A stretch of 64,000 nt of DNA from Hawksworthiomyces lignivorus. Its lineage: Eukaryota > Ascomycota > Sordariomycetes > Ophiostomatales > Ophiostomataceae. The translations under genes and the position numbers were made by a program. This document shows, in pieces, positions 1 through 50,622 of this stretch. Within the stretch, counting starts at the first letter, position 1. Each line of letters starts with the position of its first letter. The notes under the pieces are model-generated. The model saw nothing but the letters and a program-made list of their open reading frames with translations, was not told the DNA's origin and searched no databases. The stretch lies in contig NTMA01000073.1 in assembly GCA_002917075.1 (NCBI GenBank), forward strand, positions 62,001 through 126,000. Reading direction: 5' to 3'.

Positions 1-3000
1 TGAGTAAGAAGATAGAGACAGAAAGTACTTGATAGTACCGTGCACAGCGGTATCTTCCATCACAAGTAAAAATAAAAAATAAAAAAAAACAGAAGAGGCG
101 ATCTGCGTTCTCTCTTGTCTCCCCGACTCTTCGTCCACAGTTTTGCTTTTGCATCCTCTTTCCTTCTTGCCTCCTCCCATCCCGTCTCATGCTTCTGGTG
201 TAATCGATGCACACGTGCGTCAAGCGCGTGCGGAGAGATGCATGTATCGCACATGCATCACTAGTGTTATTTTGATTTTGTCTACTATTTCTTCCCTGTC
301 GTCTGCAGTGTTGGGCCCTTACTTCTACCTCTCTATTTTAGCTTACACGCGGTCCGCATGATGATTTCTACGCAGAATTATTACGACGGCCCTAGCAGAG
401 AGCAGGATATAATGAGAGCCGCGATTGAGATGAGATCTTACCCCGTTTACCAGCAAGTCCTGGGCTAGCAGATATCCCAGCGGCTCCAGGCACGTATCTT
501 CAAGTCGTTTTCCCTTTCCGTGCGTTTCAATTCTTCCGGGCGGGTAGACAGGACTCGAAGCACCAGCCTGCCTTGTCTGTTGCGCCCTTCTGTCCTGCCG
601 AGAAGATACAACCACCCCCAGGTCGTCTTGGGAGAACTTAGACTTTCCTGGTTGCAAACTCGAAACCGAGAGCAGAGAGAAAGGAAAAGAACTAAAGCAA
701 AATGTGCTTGCGCCACACTCAGGAAGGGTCGAAACAGAGAAGCGAAGAAACGGACCATGGATGCCTTTATTTTGTCCAATTTGCATGTGTCCACGGGTGA
801 AACGAGGTGAGAGCAGGGGTTTCTCATGGCATGTGGACGACAGGTAGTGAGAATACCGTTTTTTTTTCCTTGTGCAGCCTATGAACCTGGCCGCTTATGC
901 ACCTGGCCGAGGAGCAGAAGAGACGAAAGAAGAGCCGGCTGGGCGAAGGGAAAAGACGTCTAAAATAGAAAATATAGAACAAAGCAGAGCAAGGAGGAAA
1001 GAAAGCGGTTACAGAGCAATATGTATTCTAATCTACGATGACGGCAAGAAAACTAAGAATACGACTGGTTTGAGAATAGAGAGGATCGCCGTCGATCTCC
1101 CCTTAGACAAATATGGCAAAAACAGAGAAGCGCCAAAAGGTTAAAAGAAAACCCTCTGTACCTGCATAAAACAGGGGTAGGACTCTTGCCTTTTTGGCGT
1201 TTTAAGGTTCGGCAACGGGCATAATTATTATGTTATCAGGGTATATGAGTATGGTAAGAGGTTGCAACCGATTAAGGGAGAAGGAGGCTGCAATGTGTCA
1301 AAATGTCCCTAAAAATGAAGGGGCATTTCACGGAGTAACACAAGAGAGAATACGGGAGCACGAGAAGGAAAGAACAGCGAAGGGAAATTGCGGAGCTCAA
1401 GATGAGCTTTCCCTGCACGTAGAAAGGTAGGTACATACCTACATGTAACTGCTTCGTGATATGCAAATTCGCTTTAACACGCGAAGAACACTGGAACGAA
1501 CGACTTTGCAAGTGGGGAAGGAACGTTTTCCAGAAGAATGTGCCTTCCTGTTTGGCTCTTTCAGGGCCTGGCCCGTACGGAGAAGTACAGTTCCACCCCT
1601 TCCTTGTTTCTTGTTCTGGTCCGGTACGACATAAAACAGACTCGAAATAAGTGAAAAGCCCCACACCTCACTACATACATAATGTATACCGCTACAAGTA
1701 AGTTCCTGACTTAGCAAGTACAGACGACTTGCAGCTCTTTTTTCTTTTTTGGCCTGTGGCCCTTGCTCTTGCGACAACCCCAGCCTTCCAAATTTAAAAA
1801 TTCTTTTTTTTTTTTTTGTTTCCTTAACCGTTTTTTCTTCTTGCTTCCCCCCCTCTTTTGCTTTTCGCGCCTCCTTCTCTTTCCTACATTTTTCTCCCCT
1901 TCCCACCGCCTTACCCACACCCCTCCCACACAAAACGTGCAGAAAAAATCTGTTAACTTCCTATCCGATTTGCTCTCTTTCCCTTTTCTTTCATATTCCT
2001 TCGCCAGACCTCGCATATCACCATCCTTAACACGTACAAATAAGCATCCTCAATGACACGATGCGGGAAAGCGATCTTGCAAACGCTTAAGAGATATTTT
2101 CCCTCAACAACCAATCCTACCGCGACGACCGCTATTCTCTCAAGCAGGTTCGTCCACTGAGGTCACCACCACCACCACCACCTCCTCCACCACCACCGCC
2201 GCCGCACATTCTCACGACGAGCTGCATAAACTTCCCGCCCTCGTTTTTCTGCAATTCGCGTTTGCTGCAGAAACAGGTCGTTCTTGTTCTCCGTGCTCTC
2301 TCTTGCTCGCTCGCTCTCACTCAGAGACCTCCCCGGCGTCTATCACGTCTTCTCTCTCTCTCTCTCTTTTGCGAATAACTTCATTGTATCGTCCAAAGCG
2401 ATCTTTGTCTCTTTTTTCGCCATACGCCCACCCTCCTCTTCCTCTTTTTTCCCTTCTCATCCCATCTCTCATCCTCATCCTCCACTACCTCTTCCTTGCA
2501 CACACGCCCCCCTTCTTCTCAAACTTCTCGACATCTCCGTCTCTTTTCGACATATCTCTCCCGCGTTTCTCATTTCTGGGCCACTGGCTGGGCTGCCTTC
2601 TCTATTTTCCTCCTTCCTGTACCACGACTGCTCTGCTCTGCTCTGCTTCTCTTCGCATCCTTCTGCCTTCTCGTCTCCCACGTTCTGCCTCTATTTCTTC
2701 TCCTCGGCTTCTGAGGTAACCGAAAAGGCAACTCCCGTCCGCCTTCTGCTTTATTCCTCTTCTGGGTCCTCTCCCTTTAATTGTTATTTTTTTCCGCTTT
2801 CACTCTCCTCTTCTTTTTTTTTTTCTCTTTTCCTCTTTTCTTTTATCTCCTTATACTGGAGAACCGTATAGTTCTGTTACCAGCTTCCTCATTTGTCTAG
2901 CTCTCCGTTCTCACGCTCCCTTTCACACATACTCTCTCATAACCCGCCATTTCTTTTGAAAAAGAGGGACGTACACCGACAGGGGCGACCACCAAGTCGT

Positions 3001-3060
3001 ATCCCCGTCTTTTCTTATTTCTTGTCTTTGTAATTCCGTATTCACATCCGTCCGCCCCCA
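1..3060. other. Intergenic region and pyrimidine-rich leader
   Basis: I see no convincing gene here. The short open frames are low-complexity or overlap each other with no recognisable domain. From about 1790 to 2900 the plus strand is strongly C/T-rich with few purines, a common feature of fungal promoters and 5' leaders. It probably belongs to the CENP-B-like gene that starts at 3061. Confidence 0.6.
2163..2205. repeat. CAC/TCC/CCG trinucleotide microsatellite
   Basis: An imperfect run of CAC, CTC and CCG triplets lies in the leader region upstream of the gene at 3061. It is a simple repeat and not part of an exon that I can support. Confidence 0.7.
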
Positions 3061-4536
3061 ATGTCTGAAGGGGCGCCGGACGTGGCGCCGGCACCAGCCA
3101 CTCCCGCGGATGCTGCTGCTGCCGCTGCTCATGCTCCACCAAATGACGCCGACAATGGCAACAGCGATGAGAACGCTGTCGGTAATGAAGATGAGAAGAT
3201 GGAGGATGCTGACTTGACCAATGTTGCCTCCTCGTCGCCGGCGGTCGGCTCCACAGCCCTCTCTACGCCACAAAAGGAGCGTCACTCTCTCACACTTGAC
3301 CAGCGTCGTGCCCTCCGCCGTTGGGCCAATGCGCAGCTGAGCCGGCCATCTCACAAGCAGTGCATTGAGTGGTTCCAGCGGCAATACCACCAGACCATCT
3401 CCCAGTCCACCGTCTCGCACAGCTTATCACCCAAGTATGCGCGTCTCGACGGCGAGCCCCAGCTGTCGGGCAGCCGCCTGCGCTTCGGCAACTGGCCCGA
3501 GGTGGAGAAGCTCGTGCTGCTATGGTACCAGCAGATGGCGCATACCGGCCGCCACCCGACCAACGAGGAGCTCGCCGAAAAGGCCAAGAGCATCTTCTCC
3601 CAGCTGCCGCGCCACCGCGGCGAAGAGCCGCCTGAATTCTCTCCCGGATGGATCCACCGGTTCAAGAAGCGGTACGGCTTGCTCATTCGGCGACAGCGGC
3701 GGTCGTCGGGTGGCGCCGTGCTTGGCGGTCCGTCCGACGACCCGGCAAACGACGTACCGTACCTGGTCAATGCTGTGTCGCAACTTATGAGCATCACACC
3801 CGACACAAATCCGGTCGCAATTCGCCAAACTCTCCTGCACAATCTCGGCATCGAGCCGTCCATTGCTGTGTGCACTCGCGTGCGCGACGAGATCGTGCGG
3901 CACGAGCATGACCTGTCCCGGCAGCTCGGCGCGGTGCCCAGTACACCAACACAGGCGATCGTGGGAGCGCCGCCAGTGGGTGGCACCCTCGGGCTGTCCT
4001 CGGCCACGACAGAATCTCAAGCGAGCGCGGCGACAGCAGCAGCAGCAGCTGTAGCGGCCGCGGCAGCTGCGGCGGCCGCGGCATCTGGCGCAAACGCGTC
4101 GCCGTCACGCGCGAACTCCAACGACCCACAACAGCATGTGCGCTCGAACGGAAACGGTGGAACGGCCACCGAGGTCCCCCCGTCTTCTGGGTATCATCCG
4201 AATCCGGACGAAGATCCCGAGTTGGTGCTGCAGAATGCGCTGCGGCAGCTTCAGCAAGAAGAAGCCGACGCCGTCGAGGCAGAAGCGGCGGCGGCAGCGG
4301 CGGCGGCAGCCGACGTCAGCGGAGACCGGAGCGCGCTTGCATCGCTGGCATCAAATGCAGTTGGCATGAAAAGCGGTGCAGGAGACGTATCGTCATCGGG
4401 CGGGCCCGGGACAACAGGATCCGCCGCCACCGCCGCCGCTAACCGCCCCGTGCGGTGTCCGTTCTGTGTCAACCAGCGCATGCTGCGGACGGTCAAAGAG
4501 GCCGTGGACCACGTGGCAACGCACGTTGTCATTTGA
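3061..4536 (+). CDS. CENP-B-type helix-turn-helix DNA-binding protein
   Basis: Single-exon protein of 491 residues, starting at an ATG that follows the CT-rich leader. Residues 1-70 are Ala/acidic low complexity. Residues about 74-128 look like a CENP-B N-terminal (psq-type) helix-turn-helix, and residues about 144-210 look like the CENP-B/Tc5-transposase HTH (an NWPEVEKLVLLWY segment, later SPGWIHRFKKRYGL). No DDE transposase domain follows. Instead there is a long Ala-rich disordered region with pure Ala runs and a C-terminal C-x2-C-x14-H-x3-H zinc-finger-like motif at about residues 469-489. Families with only the paired HTH halves (CENP-B, fission-yeast Abp1/Cbh proteins) are domesticated pogo-like transposases that bind DNA in chromatin, so a nuclear DNA-binding role is inferred. 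Targets are unknown. Confidence 0.82.
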   Translation: MSEGAPDVAPAPATPADAAAAAAHAPPNDADNGNSDENAVGNEDEKMEDADLTNVASSSPAVGSTALSTPQKERHSLTLDQRRALRRWANAQLSRPSHKQCIEWFQRQYHQTISQSTVSHSLSPKYARLDGEPQLSGSRLRFGNWPEVEKLVLLWYQQMAHTGRHPTNEELAEKAKSIFSQLPRHRGEEPPEFSPGWIHRFKKRYGLLIRRQRRSSGGAVLGGPSDDPANDVPYLVNAVSQLMSITPDTNPVAIRQTLLHNLGIEPSIAVCTRVRDEIVRHEHDLSRQLGAVPSTPTQAIVGAPPVGGTLGLSSATTESQASAATAAAAAVAAAAAAAAAASGANASPSRANSNDPQQHVRSNGNGGTATEVPPSSGYHPNPDEDPELVLQNALRQLQQEEADAVEAEAAAAAAAAADVSGDRSALASLASNAVGMKSGAGDVSSSGGPGTTGSAATAAANRPVRCPFCVNQRMLRTVKEAVDHVATHVVI

Positions 4537-6361
4537 GAGAAAGAGCCGAATGCACAGGGAACGTGCTTCCTGGCAATTTCTCCATTTACTTTATTTTGTT
4601 TTATTTTTGACTTCATCATCTCCTGAATAGCCCTGGGACGGCATCATTATTATTTTCCAAGCGAGAACGGCCCCTCATAATTGCTCGAGGCACCGTTGAA
4701 GAGAGGAGACTAGCCGATGCGCCACCGGGAACGAAGGGGAAAGGAAAGGTGGAGGGGCCACAAGGGAGGGCTAGGGATGGACAGGGGCAGCGCGATATCC
4801 AGGGAAATGAATTTTCTGCTTTCAAATTGTTTGTTTTCTATCTGTTTTTTTTTTTTTTTGCCCTTGCACAAAGACTTTTAAGAATGGACCTGCGTTCACA
4901 CACAGACTACACACTTACTGCCCTCAAACACACACTCTCAATAAGACATCAGCCACGCATCTATACCGGTTTGCTTGTTACACCTACATACGCAAGCCAC
5001 AAGAGATATCATCGTTATTTCTATTGTTATTTTCAACGGCCGGACATACCCAGGCACGAACAGGAGAGGGCCAAATCAGATTCGATTATGGGAAAGATGG
5101 GAGGGCCATAAAGGCTTTGTTTGGTTTTCACTTTATTTTCTACATCTCATTCGCAGCTTCGTGTCCCATATCTTTCTCTTCTCCTCGATACTCCTTCTCT
5201 TTGCATGGCGTTGCTGCTCGTCATCATCTTTCTTAAAATTTCGAGTTTTACTGTTCTCTTTCGAGTCTCTTCCCCCCCACCTCTAACTCTTACCGTTTTC
5301 TGCTGTCCAATCCATCTGTTACTCCGATTTCTTATAATTTCTAGTTTAGAAATCATTGCACTTCCCATGTTGTTCTATGTACTAAATTTTTTTCTTAAAC
5401 ACATCCGTATAAGAAGGAAAGAAGGTTGCCGCAAATTCAGAGCACAGATCATAATGCATCCTATGGTAGTATCATGCGTGATGTCTACTGCCCGTAGCGA
5501 GAGTAAGAAAACGGATTACTTTTTATTATCTCAGCTAAATTCACCCTGTTTTGAGATTGAAAACAATTGAAGGAGGAAAAAAACAAAGGTAAGAAAATAA
5601 AGACGAAAGATAAAAAAGCCTTCAAATTCATGTACATAATTCCATCCGTCACATCATACCAATAGGGAGAGGGGGAATAAATATGAGAGAAAATAAAAAC
5701 CCGTGGCAAAGAGGGAGGACGACTATTCCAAAGGCTAATCTTCTATGTTGTTCCCAAGAAACCTCTCGTAGGAAAGTAGGAAAAATAAAGACATAACAGC
5801 ACACCAGGGTAATAAGCATTCCATAACTCTACTCCATCATCCTAGACACACACAAAAAAAGTAACAGAAGTGCAACATAAGAAAAAAAGGCTTGCAGTGA
5901 AGATAACTTCCGGCAACAGATTTCAAGTCGAACAATTGGAATGCCCAGCGCCTAACCACCCAAAAGACGCCACATGTGAAGTAAGAAGAGGAAAATGAAG
6001 ATCATAGAAGAGTTTTGTACTCCAAAATCAAACGAAGATGAAAAAAAGACGAAAGTGGTCAAAGTTTCTCTTTGGTATCTTCCGCTTCGTAGTTCAGTGA
6101 AGGTACTTTGTTTTCCCATCAGAGAATACATGAAACTTAAAGGGAACGGAAACTGGGGCAGTTTCTCGTATCAGAAGTCAAGTATATAAAAGAAGTAAAA
6201 GCCATGTTTGTCGACAAGAAGAATATCAAGACAGACCAAACATAAACTAGTTAATCTAAAATGAGAGCCGCTGTCCGGAAATGTTATGTGCAAGATAGAA
6301 ATGAATATTGAAGAGCCGAGAAAGAACAAGGCAGAGGCAGCTATTCTAACCGATTGCCTTT
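4537..6361. other. Convergent 3' intergenic region
   Basis: This lies between the ends of the CENP-B-like gene (+) and BEM1 (-). It is AT-richer, with a T tract near 4844-4859 and short open frames of no recognisable composition. It probably holds both 3' untranslated regions. I see no gene. Confidence 0.6.
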
Positions 6362-8656
6362 CTATGAGATCTCCACGTAAAGCAGCAATTTCTCGTTTCG
6401 TTGTATTGCCGCATCCAGGTCCGCGTTGCTGAGCAGAGGAGGCTTGTCACCAGTTGCATCGTCTTTGAAGTAGATCTGCATCTGGTCGGCAACAGAAATC
6501 TTGAGCCGATCGCGGATCTTCTCATACAAATCGCGGAACTGGATATCCGAGGGCACACGGATAGCAATCAGCTCGTTGTTGAAACTGAGCTTTATTTTGA
6601 TAGCCTGTGCAGGCTGGTTGATCCCTGGTGATAGCGATGTTTGCGAAGGCTGCGAGAGGGACGATGGCTGGCGAGTCATTGCTGGCTGGGGAGCCCCATA
6701 GCCGTTGCTGCCGTTCATGTTGTTCTGTGAAGGCTGGCGAGTTGCACCGTTGGCGTCCATTGGGCCGCCTGCCATTTGCTGCTCCTCGTCTGCAACCGGA
6801 TCAATCTCGTAGTCGCCTTGGCGGGGATTGAAAAACTGCTTCACTAGTTCACACCGCGCAATATATGGCGGTTGTGCCAGGAGGTTCTTGACATAGGCAT
6901 CGAGGTTGTGAAGCCGCCCTTCGGTAATAGCATCGGTTACGTAGTTGACAGGACCAGGCATGTATGGCAAAGTGCGCTTCTTGGTGCCACCGTTACCGGC
7001 CTCGACGGGAAATTCTCTGAGTAGGGCGATCTGGAAGTCGTAGAAATCTTCATAGTACCGCGACAACTCCCAGTGCCGACCGTCCTCCAGAACAGCTTCG
7101 ATGACAAACCAGTACTTCTCCTCGGCATAGCAGTACCGTGGGATGTGAGCAGAGATTGGCGCGTACAGTTGAGAGCTCGTGGACTTGCCATTGTATGTCC
7201 CTTGTTGCTGCTGCATTTGCATATTCTGCTGTGTGTTTCTCTGCGAGTTGTAGGCAGAAGGTGCCTGGGCCTGGTTGGAACAAGCCATGTCAGTCTCAAC
7301 AAATCGCTAGTCGATAACAGCACGGGACGAGGAAGAAGAAACTCACATAGCCATTTGCTTGGCTAGCCCGCCCACCAGCGGCATTACCCTGCTGCATACT
7401 CATCCTCTCCATACCCTGCTCCAGTCCTGTTTGACCTGGAGCAGCTCCACCTTCAAATTTGCCTAGTGTGATACTGCTATTCTTATAGTCGGCGGCCATC
7501 TTCTTCCATTCTTCGACTCTGGGGATACCAGCGCGGCGCACTGCTTCTTGGGGATTCGGGACCGGTGTGTTCGAAGCCATGTCGCGAATCTCAACAAAGG
7601 ACACGGGAATAAGGCCGGGGCCGCCCAAACGGCCAATTGGCTTTGCGACAAACCACTCCGGGTTCGACTGGGCAATCACAATGATTGCCTCGCCTGCTTT
7701 GGCTTCCAATTCATCCGCTCGTTCAGCCTGGAAATCGTACATGACAATGCCGTACACCATAGGGCTGTTCTTCCCGCCTGATGATTTCGAGTCTCTCACG
7801 CTCCCGGTTGGTTGAACGGAAGCTGTAGAGCTGGTGGTTCCGGCAGTTCCTGGCGCAGAGGTCTCGGAGTATCCTGAATCGTGGTCGGGAATCTTGGCGG
7901 ACGTGGCGGCAGAACGGCTCGAGTCGGATTGTGCGCTGTCTCGCTCGGTGCGACCCAGGGCTTGGAAAAAGGCGACAGGTACAAGGCCGCGCGCATCTGG
8001 CAGAGCGGGGTTGCAAGCTTCATACCAGTCTTGGTCGTTTTCACGGCCAATAACGTGGAAGAAGTCGCCTCTTGAGAAGCTCAGTTCTTGGCTCGACTGC
8101 GCCTCATAGTCATAAAGGGCTCGAATAACCTGTTATTGTCAGCATGGCGATTCTGATTGCTATAAGAAGCAGCAGCTTCGTATTAGACACACCTTTTTAG
8201 GCGGAACAATAGCAACAGCTGACTTTGGAGCAATAGAAATTTGAGGCTTGGCCTCTTTCTCTCCCTTGATTGACCTCCGCAAAGCCTGAATAGCACGCAC
8301 AGTTGTTAGCCTAGTTCTTACGGCATTGGTGAGGAGGCAGCACTCGATAGCATATAATAGAGAAATGGCAGAAAACCGCTGCCGAGAGACAGCTGCTCTT
8401 CGCTGCGCCATGAATAAAGGCCCAGTTTGCAAAAAAAGTCAAGGCGGAACAATAGGAATTAGAGCAGTCCCAAGCACAGGAGGACTCAACTCTCCAAACC
8501 GAACTCGGTAGAACAGCAGGCAGTAGGAAAGCACAAAGAGATATAAAGAGCCACAGTCACGAACTCTGGGCAATGGTCGACAGAACATGAAGAGGTCGTC
8601 GCATAATTTCAATATGTACAACAATAAAAATTGCGAAGCTGGTGACGTACCTTCAT
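6362..8656 (-). CDS. BEM1: BEM1/Scd2 polarity scaffold (SH3-SH3-PX-PB1)
   Basis: Four coding exons on the minus strand: 8656-8651, 8285-8193, 8129-7347 and 7270-6362, giving 596 residues. Exon 1 encodes only Met-Lys before a GTACGT donor. Domain order is that of Bem1/Scd2: SH3 at about residues 33-95 (ALYDYEAQSSQELSF, then DWYEA), a second SH3 at about 158-218 (MYDFQAERADELEA, then EWFVA), PX at about 330-430 (SRYYEDFYDFQIALL) and C-terminal PB1 at about 518-596 (IKIKLSFNNE, then PSDIQFRDLYEKI). In this family the SH3 domains bind PAK kinase, PX binds phosphoinositides and PB1 binds the Cdc42 exchange factor Cdc24, linking active Cdc42 to polarised growth. All exon joins keep frame. NoxR/p67phox is the main alternative PB1/SH3 protein, but it has TPRs and no PX, so BEM1 is secure. 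Confidence 0.95.
8286..8650 (-). other. Long first intron of BEM1
   Basis: GTACGT donor directly after ATG-AAG, acceptor ...ATTCAG before GCTTTGCGG. At 365 bases it is several times longer than the other introns in the window and separates a six-base coding exon from the rest. It is inferred from frame and family N-terminus (Met-Lys-Ala-Leu-Arg-Arg). Confidence 0.8.
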
Positions 8657-10227
8657 TGTGATGGGCTAGACCGGCGAGTTGTCAGAATCTGTGGAATAAA
8701 GCAATGTAAGTTGTGTAAGTGGTGCAAGTGGAGGTTGGTCCGATGGGAATCCGTCGCTGAACAAGTCAACAAAGAGGCGGCGCGGAAAGTGGCTGTTCAC
8801 TTCTTATCCCGCTTGGTTTGCTTCCTGGTTGTCTTTTTGGTTCGCGTGCGAATGGCGTCACTGAAGAATCAGCCGTGGGAGAGAAGGTTGGGAAATGGCC
8901 GTGGGCAACAAAAAATCAAGGGCGCAAACCGCGAGCGAGTGGGGGTAAGCGGCAAAGGCTGGTGTATGGCGCAAGATAATCGGAAAAAAGGCGTCCTGGA
9001 AGTGGCGAGCGAGCGAGATCGGGTAATTTATTCTTGAAGAAATGGCAGGATAGTTGTGGGCGAATTCAAGTTCTTTGCTTATATCGAGAGAAAGCGACAG
9101 ACCGCGTTTATGGCAGTGCAAGCGAGAAAAGAAAAGACTATTCGGCGAAAGGGTAGGTAGCGCTGAAGAACTGTTATGGAAAACTAGGGGCGACAAGGGT
9201 TGGTGTCTTTGCGTCTCTTCTAGCAGCACAGTTGCATATGTTGTTGGCGCCCTCCCGAATTGATACTAGGGCCGCAATCTCCCTGGGCGTCACAAAGTCA
9301 AATTGCAATGTTGGCAATTGTCGTGGCCGATCCTTTCTACTGGCGGCGAATTTGTATCGGTGTGAACGCTAGATGTCCTCCGTCAATTTTGGTTGTCTTC
9401 GTTGCTGTTCTGTCTGTAACGTTCGATTCGTTCTGTTATGGCGCCGCTCAGAAAAAAGATGTAAGAGTAGAGACTCTTCAGTCAACAATCTTTCGGCAAT
9501 CGTTATCTAGTCAAGCGTCTCGCATTCACACTTGTCCCCACAATGGCCCTTTACACACTGAATGGCAGAGCACGGTCGGTCGTTGTGTTTCCTCTCCGCG
9601 GAGTTGTCTGCAAGGTAACCGTGCCGGAATGACGAGGTGTGGTCCAGCGGAGGCGACAGAAGAGCAGACTCTCGATTGAAACGACGGCTGGTGACAAGGA
9701 AAAGAAAGGGAAGCCGCGTCGATACAGTTGAAGAGCGCGCACTCGTTTGATCGCGAAAGAGAGAGAGGGCCACAAGGTCAGTGACTGTCGCTGGAGTAAA
9801 GCAAAGAGAGGGAAAGGAGGGGAAAAGAAGGAAAAAGAAGGAGAAGAAAGGGAACAGGCGAAGCAGAAGAGAAGAAGAGAAAAAGCAGAATAAGCCTTAC
9901 AGACCAAGAAAATGAATTAACAGGAAGAAGAGGGAAAAAAGAGGGGAGGGAAACGGGGGGTGGAAGGACTGCTGGGACCTGGGCGATCGGGGGGAACAAT
10001 AATATGGAAAGGAAAGAACGACAGAGAAGATAATGGAGGGCGGCGCGCGGGTTGATGGGGAAGGAGGGGATTGGAGGGGGTGGAAGACAGAAAGATGCAA
10101 GAACGACCCGTGGGAAAAGAGAAAGGGGGGGAGAAGGGAAAGAGATGAGGAGGGGGAGTGGTTCAGAACAAAAGAGAGGGAAGGAACAAGGGTTGGGATT
10201 GGGCATGGTTAGCGGGAAGAAAGTCAG

Positions 10228-46748: not shown

Positions 46749-49369
46749 TTACAATGATCCACGCTCCATCTGTTCCAACTCCGAAATATTCCTTACAGTC
46801 TGTTGGGCCTCGGCACCAAGGACACGCCGAGATGCCTTCACAACGGATTGCATCATTTCTAAAGCCTCTGTCCTGCGGCCTTGCTCGTACCATGCCAAAG
46901 CTAGACTGTGTTTGATCTCTAGAATCTCCACGTCATCTGCTTCTAGTGACATCTTCTGGGCCTCCATCAACTCAACATATAGCTGCGCCGCCTCTGACCA
47001 CCGGGCCTGCTTACAGTATAATATTGCCAGTAAATGCGTGCTTCTCAGCGTCTCCGGGTGGTTGACCCTGAGCGCCATTTTCTGGCCCTCAAGTGTCTTG
47101 ATCAATAGCTCGTTTGCCTCTAAATACCGACCTTGGCAAATATATATTGGCGCTAGGTTGCTCATACTTCTAAGTGTGAGCTGATGGTTGTAAGGAAGCG
47201 TTTCCTTGCGTATCTCGACCACCTTTGCGGATAATTTCTCCGCTTCTGACCACCGCTCCTGCTTGATATAAAGTAGCGCCAGGTTGTTCATGGTTGCCAA
47301 CGTGCTCGAGTCGTGATCGCCAACCATCTTCTGCAGCCCCTCAATAACATCAACGTACAGCTTCTCTGCCTGCGAAAAGCGGTGCTGGTGGTCATATACT
47401 AACGCTAAGCGAGACATACTACAGAGTGTTCCCTTATCAATAGAAGAAGAAGACTTCCTCCGTATGTCGGCTACTTTCATGTAAAGCATCTCTGCCGTCG
47501 ACATCTGACCCTGCCTAAAAAGACTAGACGCTAATACTTCTTGGAAGCTAAGCACAACGAAATCTTCGCTCCCGAGGGACCTCGTCTCTTTTAACCCCTT
47601 TCGAGCCATCTCCTCAGCCACCTTGTATTTTTCTTGTTCTATCGCATACCATGCCGCTTTAATTAAGAGCCTGGCAAACTCGACTAAAGCATCTTGCTTA
47701 GGCTGGTATGCGAGAGTGGCAAGCACATGAGCTGACAGGCGTTCGCATGTTGACCAATACTTGTCTACGTCGAATGAATCGTTCATCAATATTAAAAACC
47801 GTTTCATCCAGATATCTTGCTGCCCCGAAGATGCAAGCCACGCTCGCGTTGATAGCTGTATAATCCTGTGCATCGCAAACTCGTCGCCGTCTTTGCTCGC
47901 TGTAATCAAACAATAGTCTCGTAAAGTCATCAGGTTTTCTTCAAGGAGGCTATCACCTGCACTTTTCTCATCAGCATCGATCTCATCTTCTGCGTTGCTG
48001 AAACCACCATTCAACCACGCATCGTCCTGGAGTATTACTTGGCTGCTCGTGGATGATATCTCCTTCGTAGGCATGTGAGCCTTTGGAAACCAGCCGCGGA
48101 ATTTCCGTGCAAAGCTGAAACGCTTTTTTTTAGCAGGTCCTCTTTTTCGGCGATTCGGATGTGTCGTTGCTTTTTCTGGCTGTCTAGTTGTTTCTTTACC
48201 TGGTTGATATTCTCTTTCTTTATCTGGTTTGTAGGCTTTCAGTACAAACTCAGGAATGCCTTGTCGGTCAAAGAAGCTCATCAGCGCGAGCAGATCCGCG
48301 GCAGAGGGACGCTCCGTACGGAGGCGCTCGAAGGAAGCGATCCAAGTCGTGAGCACTGCATTTGTTGCCTCTGCGTCTCTCCGCAGATCACTGCCTGACT
48401 CGGTTGCCAACAGCTTTGCGATTTTGTTCTCTTTATTTTCCCGTAGCTGCTCGAGGTACGCTGCAAGCGAGGTCCGATGTTCGTCTTCCCGTATGTAGGC
48501 CGCGGCTTGCTGGATAGCCAGAGGAACCATGTCCAATGCTCGGACGAGATCCGTAGCCGTGTCTTTGTTCCAGCTCGAGGCAAGCGAACCTAGCTGATTT
48601 TCTAACAGCTCGAGGGCTTCCGCTTCCGTCATGGTGCCGACCTCGATTGCGTTGCTACGACTGCCCGTAAGCTTGTCTGCCATGCGCCTGCTGCGTGTCG
48701 TGACGACAACGGACCCGTGGCGGCATGTGGGCAGATATGAAGCCAGCGGCGCCCCGCCGTCCTCCCTCTCGGCAAAAAAAACGTCGGGATCGTCGGCGCT
48801 GTCCAATATCAGGAGCCAGCGGCCGTTCTCTTCGTTTGTCAGCCAATTTCTGACGAGAAGCGGCACGTTGGCGGTGGGCTCGTGTCGGCCGGCCAGCTTG
48901 ACGACGTCGGCGACGGCGCGGAAACCCTCCTCTACGCGCGCACGCCGGGCCGCATAAATCCAGAACACCCATGGGCGTGGCTGGCCTGAGCTCTCGTCAT
49001 CACCTTTGCGGTGCGCATACTCGATGGCCAGCTGCGACTTGCCCGCGCCGCCGAAACCAACAAGCGCCGCCCGGTGCGGCGATTTGGCGCATATCCGGTC
49101 AAGGCGATCAAGGATGTCGCCCCGGGTTACAAATTGAGGGTCACGGGAGAACGGGATCGAAGCGAACGGCGCGGGCTGCGCTTCGCTCTGTCCTGCGCAG
49201 GCGGGCGGGGGTTAGCAGGAGCATGCCTCGCAGGCAGAGCCGAAGGTAGCTGCGGAGGATCTCGGTCCTTACCTGGCCGGACGTTGAATTCGTTTCGGAT
49301 AGAGCCGAAGTTGTTTCCCACTTCGAACCCTTGGTTCTCGGGTCCAAAGAACATGCCGGCAGATTCCAT
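46749..49369 (-). CDS. NB-ARC/TPR NLR receptor with N-terminal amyloid-like motif
   Basis: Two exons on the minus strand, 49369-49273 and 49192-46749, joined by an 80-base intron (GTAAGG...CTAAC...GCGCAG), giving 846 residues. Exon 1 encodes a 32-residue N-terminus with GFEVGNNFGSI (14-24), matching the C-terminal motif of the divergent neighbour. NB-ARC follows: entry segment FSRDPQFVTRGDILDRL, P-loop GFGGAGKS (78-85), Walker B LLILDSADD (159-167), sensor-like GSVVVTTRSRRM and a GLPL-like VPLAIQQAAAYI. A Lys/Arg-rich insertion (KRGPAKKKR) precedes the C-terminal half, where about six 42-residue TPRs run from residue 560 to the end (TMNNLALLYIKQERWSEAEK). In this family, ligand sensing by repeats triggers oligomerisation, and the N-terminal motif templates amyloid assembly of a death effector. 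It shares a divergent promoter with that candidate effector. Receptor status is inferred from architecture. Confidence 0.9.
49193..49272 (-). other. NLR intron separating motif exon from NB-ARC exon
   Basis: Donor CCAG/GTAAGG, branch-like GCTAAC and acceptor GCGCAG/GACAG. The join GGA encodes Gly33 and carries the motif exon in frame into the NB-ARC entry segment. Confidence 0.8.
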
Positions 49370-49817
49370 CTCCGTGGTGCTCTTCGATGGAGGGGCGGCT
49401 AATTCAGCGTGTTGTTCGGCACCAAAAGCCTGCTCGGGTTCAGAAGTCGGCTCTTGGCTTTGAAGAGCGAAGAGAGAAGCCGATCATAGAATAGAAGCGG
49501 ACCAAAAACTAGAGGTCATACAGATAATGGTGACACTTTTTTTTCGAATGCGAGATTATCGACCCCTGATGTAGAAACGCAAGGATACAAAGTATCGCAG
49601 CTGATTTGTTGCTGGCTCTCGACAAGGCTTCGCCTAGTAGGCCGGTTATTGGTCATTTCGTAGCTGATATGCAACGCTGGCCCAACACTGGTCGCTCTCT
49701 TGCTTGCCCACCAACTTGGACTCTGGTATATTATACTGCGCCACCCCCCCCCCAGGAAGGAGGCAAGCATGTCGGCGCCTAATAGAATCCATTCGGTAGA
49801 CCACCCATATCCAAAGA
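49370..49817. promoter_or_regulatory. Divergent promoter of NLR and effector
   Basis: 448 bases between two start codons that point away from each other, so both promoters are here. The region includes a C10-type run near 49744-49753. I see no named regulatory site. Shared control would fit a receptor/effector pair. Confidence 0.6.
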
Positions 49818-50622
49818 ATGGATCAAGCTAAGGTCACAGCTATCCTTACTTCAGCGCTAGACGCCGTTCGACTTCTGTCCGACGATCTCGACGAAATTGA
49901 CAATCCTTCGGAAACTCTTAAACTTCTCAAGGCAGAAGTGCTCTCGACCAAGAGCGGTATACGGCCGCTTCGGCGCCTGTCGAAATCGCAGTGGCAATCG
50001 ATCAGCGAGTCCTTGGCCAACGAGTGCGCCGAGAAGCTTGCTCAGTGCGAGAAAGCGTGCAAGCAGCTCAGGGCTGACCTGAGCGCATCGGCGGAGTACC
50101 TTGAGGAGGACCACCAGCCCTTCTCAGACACGTCCAAAGACACGGCACAGAGCCAAAATCAGTTCCAGTTCTTATCCGGGCACCTTGAGGACTGCAAGGC
50201 CATCATCGACTGTGTCATGGATGAGGTGACTCCGTACGTCTTGTGCGAGACCCGTGATTTCGCGCCCCTTGAGCTTTTGGGTGCTAACAAAAGACAGACA
50301 ACAGACTCTTCCTCCGGAAGCTGACCACAAAGCAGCCAGAGGCACGCAGGGAATGCCAGCCACAGAGAATGGGACACATCGCCTCGCCTCGACGCACCAG
50401 CACGTTGGCGGCAGAGACAGGACTGATGGAAAGCACACAAGCGGTCAAGCAGCTGCCGAAAAGGCTGGTGTCAGCGCACTCGGAGAAGAGCCGGGCTTTC
50501 GCGGCGTAGCAGACGCCAAGGGAATAACGGTCTATTTTGCCGCCCAGAGCAATGGTGTGCAGATAGGAACCAACTACGGCAACATAAGCGGATGGACAGT
50601 CGGAGCACCGCAGAAAAAATAA
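49818..50622 (+). CDS. Candidate cell-death effector with C-terminal RHIM/HET-s-like motif
   Basis: Two exons, 49818-50233 and 50298-50622, giving 246 residues. The 64-base intron has GTACGT, GCTAAC and ACAG. Without it the frame stops at 50324 and the motif is lost. Residues 1-140 are helical and charged (LTSALDAVRLLSDDLDEID, then CKAIIDCVMDEVTP), resembling the N-terminal helical domains of fungal NLR and HeLo-like effectors (for example the PigL_N family). Residues 140-210 are a polar linker. Residues 212-246 hold GITVYFAAQSNGVQIG and then TNYGNISGW. VQIG (226-229) fits the RHIM core tetrad, and the surrounding spacing of G, N, aromatic, G and I matches the N-terminal motif of the NLR transcribed divergently. 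In known pairs such an effector permeabilises membranes after amyloid templating. That role is inferred here. There is no signal peptide or clear membrane span. Confidence 0.75.

Follow-up and report, generated by a model that had tools for sequence, protein, structure and literature searches.

Two divergently transcribed neighbouring genes in a 64,000-base stretch of fungal DNA (the window) very probably form a receptor/effector pair with PP motifs, of the PNT1/HELLP type. One gene encodes a nucleotide-binding oligomerization domain-like receptor (NLR) with an NB-ARC domain and tetratricopeptide repeats (TPR), which is predicted to activate the HeLo-like protein encoded next to it by amyloid templating, with fungal cell death following. 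The window corresponds to C163:62001-126000 within a genome assembled into 191 contigs (43.7 Mb), and the gene structure and the NLR relatives at the locus are fungal in type. The pair reading is supported by a shared motif that scores far above shuffled sequences, by a profile of foreign receptors that recovers the end of the effector, and by a second head-to-head PP/HeLo-like pair, itself broken, on contig C9. Judged from its sequence, the locus agrees part by part with the pnt1/hellp arrangement and is probably a working PP-motif pair, new as a locus and of a well-known kind. It comprises the following features:

49273..49369, minus strand: NLR exon 1, with the start codon (ATG at 49369; donor GTAAGG at 49272) and the PP motif
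49298..49354, minus strand: receptor PP amyloid-like motif, residues 6-24, core G-F-E-V-G (from PF17046 and the foreign-NLR profile, the latter with 27.5 bits on the protein and 31.1 bits on the exon ORF)
49193..49272, minus strand: NLR intron, 80 bases, GT-AG ends (GTAAGG...CTAAC...GCGCAG, with a branch-point-like CTAAC)
46749..49192, minus strand: NLR exon 2, NB-ARC and TPR (spliced reading)
48426..49112 (C163:110426-111112), minus strand: NB-ARC domain, residues 60-288 (PF00931, 35.2 bits, E 1e-8)
46785..47420, minus strand: TPR region, about residues 624-835 (PF13374, E 1.6e-37, six stretches)
49370..49817, no strand: spacer of 448 bases between the two divergent start codons (head-to-head layout)
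49818..50233, plus strand: effector exon 1, HeLo-like domain (spliced reading)
49830..50207, plus strand: HeLo-like domain (PF17111), residues 5-130 (E 4.3e-5, 23.4 bits, below the cut-off of 27.2)
50234..50297, plus strand: effector intron, 64 bases, GT-AG ends (GTACGT...CTAAC...GACAG)
50298..50622, plus strand: effector exon 2, coding for the linker and the C-terminal motif (spliced reading)
50530..50586, plus strand: effector PP amyloid-like motif, residues 217-235, core G-V-Q-I-G (from the alignment to the NLR and the foreign-NLR profile)

Residues 6-24 of the NLR and 217-235 of the effector aligned without gaps, with 6 of 19 positions identical (F, G, G, N, G and I). The BLOSUM62 score of this alignment (48) was the highest of all 19-mer pairings between the first 60 residues of the NLR and the last 60 of the effector. 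When both ends were shuffled 2,000 times the maximum score was 39, and none of the shuffles equalled 48. A sequence-only reading of the locus had given the same coordinates, exons, spliced lengths (846 and 246 residues) and ungapped alignment, all of which were borne out. Its proposal of a PP (HELLP-type) NLR/effector pair, in which the motif stands at the N-terminus of the receptor and at the C-terminus of the effector, is likewise supported by the profile and domain matches. What the sequence establishes is the structure of both genes, the presence of NB-ARC and TPR domains, the relation of the effector to PF17111 proteins and a shared PP motif at opposite ends of the two proteins.

Relatives of the NLR were then compared. 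A total of 827 were found and 120 of them listed, the closest being about 56% identical over residues 1-330, and a single motif pattern was applied ahead of the NB-ARC domain. By this pattern a PP-like core was present in 72 of the 120. The other 48 gave no motif; in 8 of these the anchor (the conserved residues with which the NB-ARC region begins) could not be located, and among the remainder a few show the motif by eye at a different spacing. In the NLR itself, which is 846 amino acids long once the 80-base intron is removed, the distance from motif core to anchor is 29 residues. Of the 74 relatives for which core and anchor were both located, 58 show the same distance, which supports the splice model. 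Splicing of the effector gene gives a protein of 246 amino acids. Alternative splices would give 241 or 245 amino acids with plausible introns, or 263 with an implausible 13-base intron; the C-terminus was identical in all 4 of the splice choices tried whose coding length is divisible by three.

A profile was built from 64 distinct foreign NLR motif peptides and run on the 1,795 open reading frames (ORFs) of at least 20 residues in the window together with the two spliced proteins. Only four sequences matched at E < 0.05, namely NLR exon 1 (31.8 bits), the NLR (28.4 bits), the effector exon 2 ORF (12.7 bits, E 0.0087) and the whole effector (11.6 bits, E 0.019, marginally outside the HMMER inclusion limit among 1,797 sequences). 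The next-best match in the window had an E-value of only 2.2. Shuffling the last 60 residues of the effector reached its real profile score in 2 of 20,000 cases. With a profile trained on half of the peptides the effector reached E 4e-4; of the 90 other fetched proteins searched along with it, 50 had matches at E 0.05.

All six identical residues occupy columns that are also kept in the 64 foreign receptor motifs (F in 61, G in 64, G in 58, N in 48, G in 43 and I in 52), although the pattern used for harvesting demanded or favoured the first four of these columns and only the last two are unbiased. On the receptor side, then, relatives keep the aligned positions, a check that the sequence-only reading had proposed. 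The central core G-V-Q-I-G of the effector fits G-hydrophobic-Q-hydrophobic-G. In the NLR core, G-F-E-V-G, E replaces Q, as it does in 5 of the 64 foreign motifs. The effector has A and S where the foreign motifs have G (62 of 64) and N (64 of 64), columns that the pattern also favoured. That two unrelated neighbours merely resemble each other by chance or composition is scarcely credible: the motif is short, rich in G and N and has six identities only, but the likeness was rarely or never reached by composition-preserving shuffles (0 of 2,000 and 2 of 20,000), it lies on the columns of a family, and the same layout recurs at the C9 locus.

The Pfam model of the PP motif is PF17046 ('misnamed SesB'), with a curated cut-off of 23.2 bits. 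It matched residues 7-24 of the NLR below this threshold, with 17.1 bits on the protein and 22.1 bits on the exon. NLR exon 1 was nevertheless the best of three PF17046 matches in the whole genome. Among seven hand-chosen NLR relatives that were scanned, three (P0003, P0005 and P0011) exceeded the cut-off, and the receptor motif sits at the same place as in these; P0016 and P0064 visibly carry the motif and were not listed by PF17046. The 2012 definition of the PP motif reads FxGx(x)NxGLQLxGxNxGxL, with Q at its centre (PMC3321046).

The motif might instead be HET-s-related (the HET-s-related amyloid motif, HRAM), a sigma motif, or of a class between these and PP. Short, G/N-rich motifs of NLRs do resemble one another, and the sequence-only reading, which pointed out the V/I-Q-I-G core, had placed the motif between the HET-s-like and RHIM/PP classes and outside any named family. 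Neither PF11558 (HET-s) nor PF17106 (sigma) matched the NLR or the effector in a Pfam scan that listed matches up to E 1, with HMMER filters dropping most above 0.1. Genome-wide, both models matched elsewhere and neither did so at the locus. The effector moreover shows a single copy of the motif, as against the double repeat of HRAM. These alternatives are therefore very improbable, and the idea of an intermediate class was abandoned in view of the PP-profile matches. Since PF17046, below threshold, and the foreign PP-receptor profile match while the HET-s and sigma models do not, the shared motif is best assigned by sequence to the named PP family, and no intermediate class is required. Of the searches of both termini that the earlier reading had proposed, the one with PF17046 thus gave a match below threshold in the NLR, and those for HRAM and sigma gave none. 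The PNP_UDP domain of PUASM-type effectors was also not among the matches listed for the effector.

Some relatives of the NLR differ at the N-terminus. In P0001 it matches PF17111 and MLKL_N (2.8e-8) and in P0092 SesA, in both cases with no PP core by the pattern, which speaks for the pair reading. P0016 combines PNP_UDP with a PP-like motif. The choice between an effector domain in cis or in trans is described in general terms in PMC3321046.

Sequence comparison makes the N-terminal domain of the effector a homologue of the PF17111 proteins. Although its own match is below the cut-off, it aligned with the foreign HeLo-like exon P0122 at 8e-14 across 127 ungapped residues, and P0122 itself exceeds the PF17111 cut-off. 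AlphaFold modelling covered effector exon 1 only (138 residues) and gave four helices, with a pLDDT of 76 and a pTM of 0.67 from three sequences and of 63 and 0.53 from the single sequence. In Foldseek the highest TM-score among the 50 matches listed was 0.59 (E 0.26), to the executioner domain of MLKL, and many unrelated helical bundles were among the matches listed in the structure searches. A sequence search against solved structures returned apolipoprotein A-IV (E 0.006 and 0.009), IncA (0.26) and a trypsin inhibitor (0.41). The structure searches support a helical bundle for the modelled domain, and no particular function.

The effector alone, used as a protein query, gave no relatives at E <= 1 among 1,161 candidates. 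When 7,998 candidates were scored with a profile of two effectors (those of the window and of C9), two proteins came out at E <= 10. Both end at 139-140 residues, near the end of effector exon 1, so that no foreign effector C-terminus was comparable. A scan of IMG/VR queried with P0122 gave no relative. P0122 and the foreign NB-ARC/TPR protein P0095 both come from sources whose longest contig measures 302,842 bases, so they may lie on one contig as a neighbouring pair.

Searching the genome with PP queries, we found three receptor motifs (in the window, at C130:150084 on the plus strand and at C9:52133 on the minus strand) and one further effector motif (C9:53298, plus strand). These counts are lower bounds, as most of these queries missed the window's own effector motif and may have missed other divergent effectors. 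The corresponding loci are:

C9:48000-57900, 1601-4230 minus strand and 4522-5370 plus strand: second head-to-head PP pair, receptor and HeLo-like effector
C130:144500-154400, 5549-8793, plus strand: third PP receptor, NB-ARC/TPR (from the PP query and a domain scan)

The C9 receptor has a nephrocystin-3/NACHT-type P-loop (PF24883, 8.1e-10) and WD40 repeats. The genome-wide look for similar pairs that had been proposed earlier thus did yield a head-to-head PP pair, but a broken one, with a stop inside the core of the receptor motif and five in-frame stops in the effector. The stops suggested repeat-induced point mutation (RIP) as the cause; TpA/ApT was 0.90 in the effector stretch and 0.73 in the whole stretch against 0.74 in the window, and RIP indices were not clearly shifted. 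The C130 receptor is 39% identical to the window NLR across 762 residues and has about ten near-identical TPR units (126-base repeats, 91% alike). Because the motif, the P-loop and the repeats are encoded in different frames, its gene model needs introns. No PP effector was seen near it within the 9.9 kb read.

The effector motif of the window was 6/19 identical to its own receptor (score 48), 8/19 to that of C130 (51) and 8/19 to that of C9 (45, the stop being scored as a mismatch). Scores of 48 or more against it were obtained with 12 of the 64 foreign receptor motifs. By comparison, the C9 effector was 13/19 identical to its own receptor (score 73), which was equalled by 1 of 64 foreign receptors. 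As the effector motif resembles that of the C130 receptor at least as much as that of its own, and as 12 of 64 foreign receptors do as well, the window pair does not appear by sequence to be tuned to itself, and this counts against a simple one-to-one relation. What is new is this lack of a closer fit to its own than to the third receptor, together with the presence in the same genome of a PP pair that is broken and of another PP receptor, the third, for which no partner was detected.

These comparisons, with the apparently partnerless C130 receptor, would fit two PP-family genes that are no longer a tuned pair, the motifs having drifted and the effector being templated by the C130 receptor or by none. 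We consider this unlikely: both genes of the window are open and adjacent, and with BLOSUM scores that differ little among the three receptors the ranking carries little weight. The P. anserina and C. globosum PP motifs are reported to cross-seed, but interactions within a cluster activate death more efficiently (PMC7885112). A network could also be imagined, in which two PP receptors with different sensor repeats (those of the window and C130) template the only unbroken PP effector found, that of the window, its motif having drifted to a middle ground while the third pair broke. This too seems unlikely, and it is weakened by the fact that effectors may have been missed and that the C130 gene model is provisional.

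Our preferred reading remains the PP receptor/effector pair. By analogy with Podospora and Chaetomium, a ligand would be sensed by the TPRs and the NB-ARC domain would oligomerise. The clustered N-terminal receptor motifs may then nucleate a cross-beta fold, which would convert the C-terminal motif of the effector, and the freed helical domain would attack the plasma membrane. Few PP systems have been tested by experiment, and the locus contributes a further, divergent pair found in nature. On it one could test how much drift between partner motifs seeding tolerates, and whether one executioner can serve several receptors.

Other motif classes were observed in the same genome, which seemingly holds HET-s-type, sigma and PP motifs. 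Paired PF17106 matches about 1.3 to 2.1 kb apart (C133:202259-204624, C114:264889-266423, C118:376312-378602 and C110:78649-80636) are possibly four sigma NLR/effector loci, with both C110 matches below the cut-off. PF11558 matches lie near NB-ARC matches at C117:25504, C107:412616 and C137:124639, the last below the cut-off.

Among the known systems the locus most resembles that of P. anserina, in which pnt1 (NB-ARC/TPR) adjoins hellp (HeLo-like) (PMC7885112). As in PNT1/HELLP, the NB-ARC/TPR receptor has an N-terminal PP motif and the adjoining HeLo-like protein a C-terminal one. Unlike PNT1/HELLP, the receptor core has E for Q and the effector has A and S at near-fixed G and N columns. The PP system of C. 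globosum additionally has the lipase SBP (PMC7885112); no PP lipase turned up in our PP queries of the genome, which can miss divergent motifs. In one survey the PP count was 296 for short N-termini of NLRs and 37 for the C-termini of neighbouring proteins (PMC9815663, Table 1). The HRAM systems NWD2/HET-S and FNT1/HELLF share the N-terminal receptor motif and C-terminal effector motif, but HRAM effectors have two 21-residue repeats of a different signature, and PF11558 has no match here. Sigma systems (sesA/sesB/het-eN) have the same motif arrangement, whereas their motif consists of repeated GxGxQFN / GGTQNINT units (PMC3321046) and PF17106 has no match at the locus. PUASM is also an amyloid motif associated with NLRs, but it reads FxGxGxQxxGxGxF and goes with PNP_UDP effectors (PMC9815663), whereas the effector described here is HeLo-like. 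Animal RHIM, which has no NLR/effector gene pair, shares the G-(I,V)-Q-(I,V)-G core with our effector, and PP and RHIM have been linked by their core sequence and by partial cross-seeding (PMC7885112).
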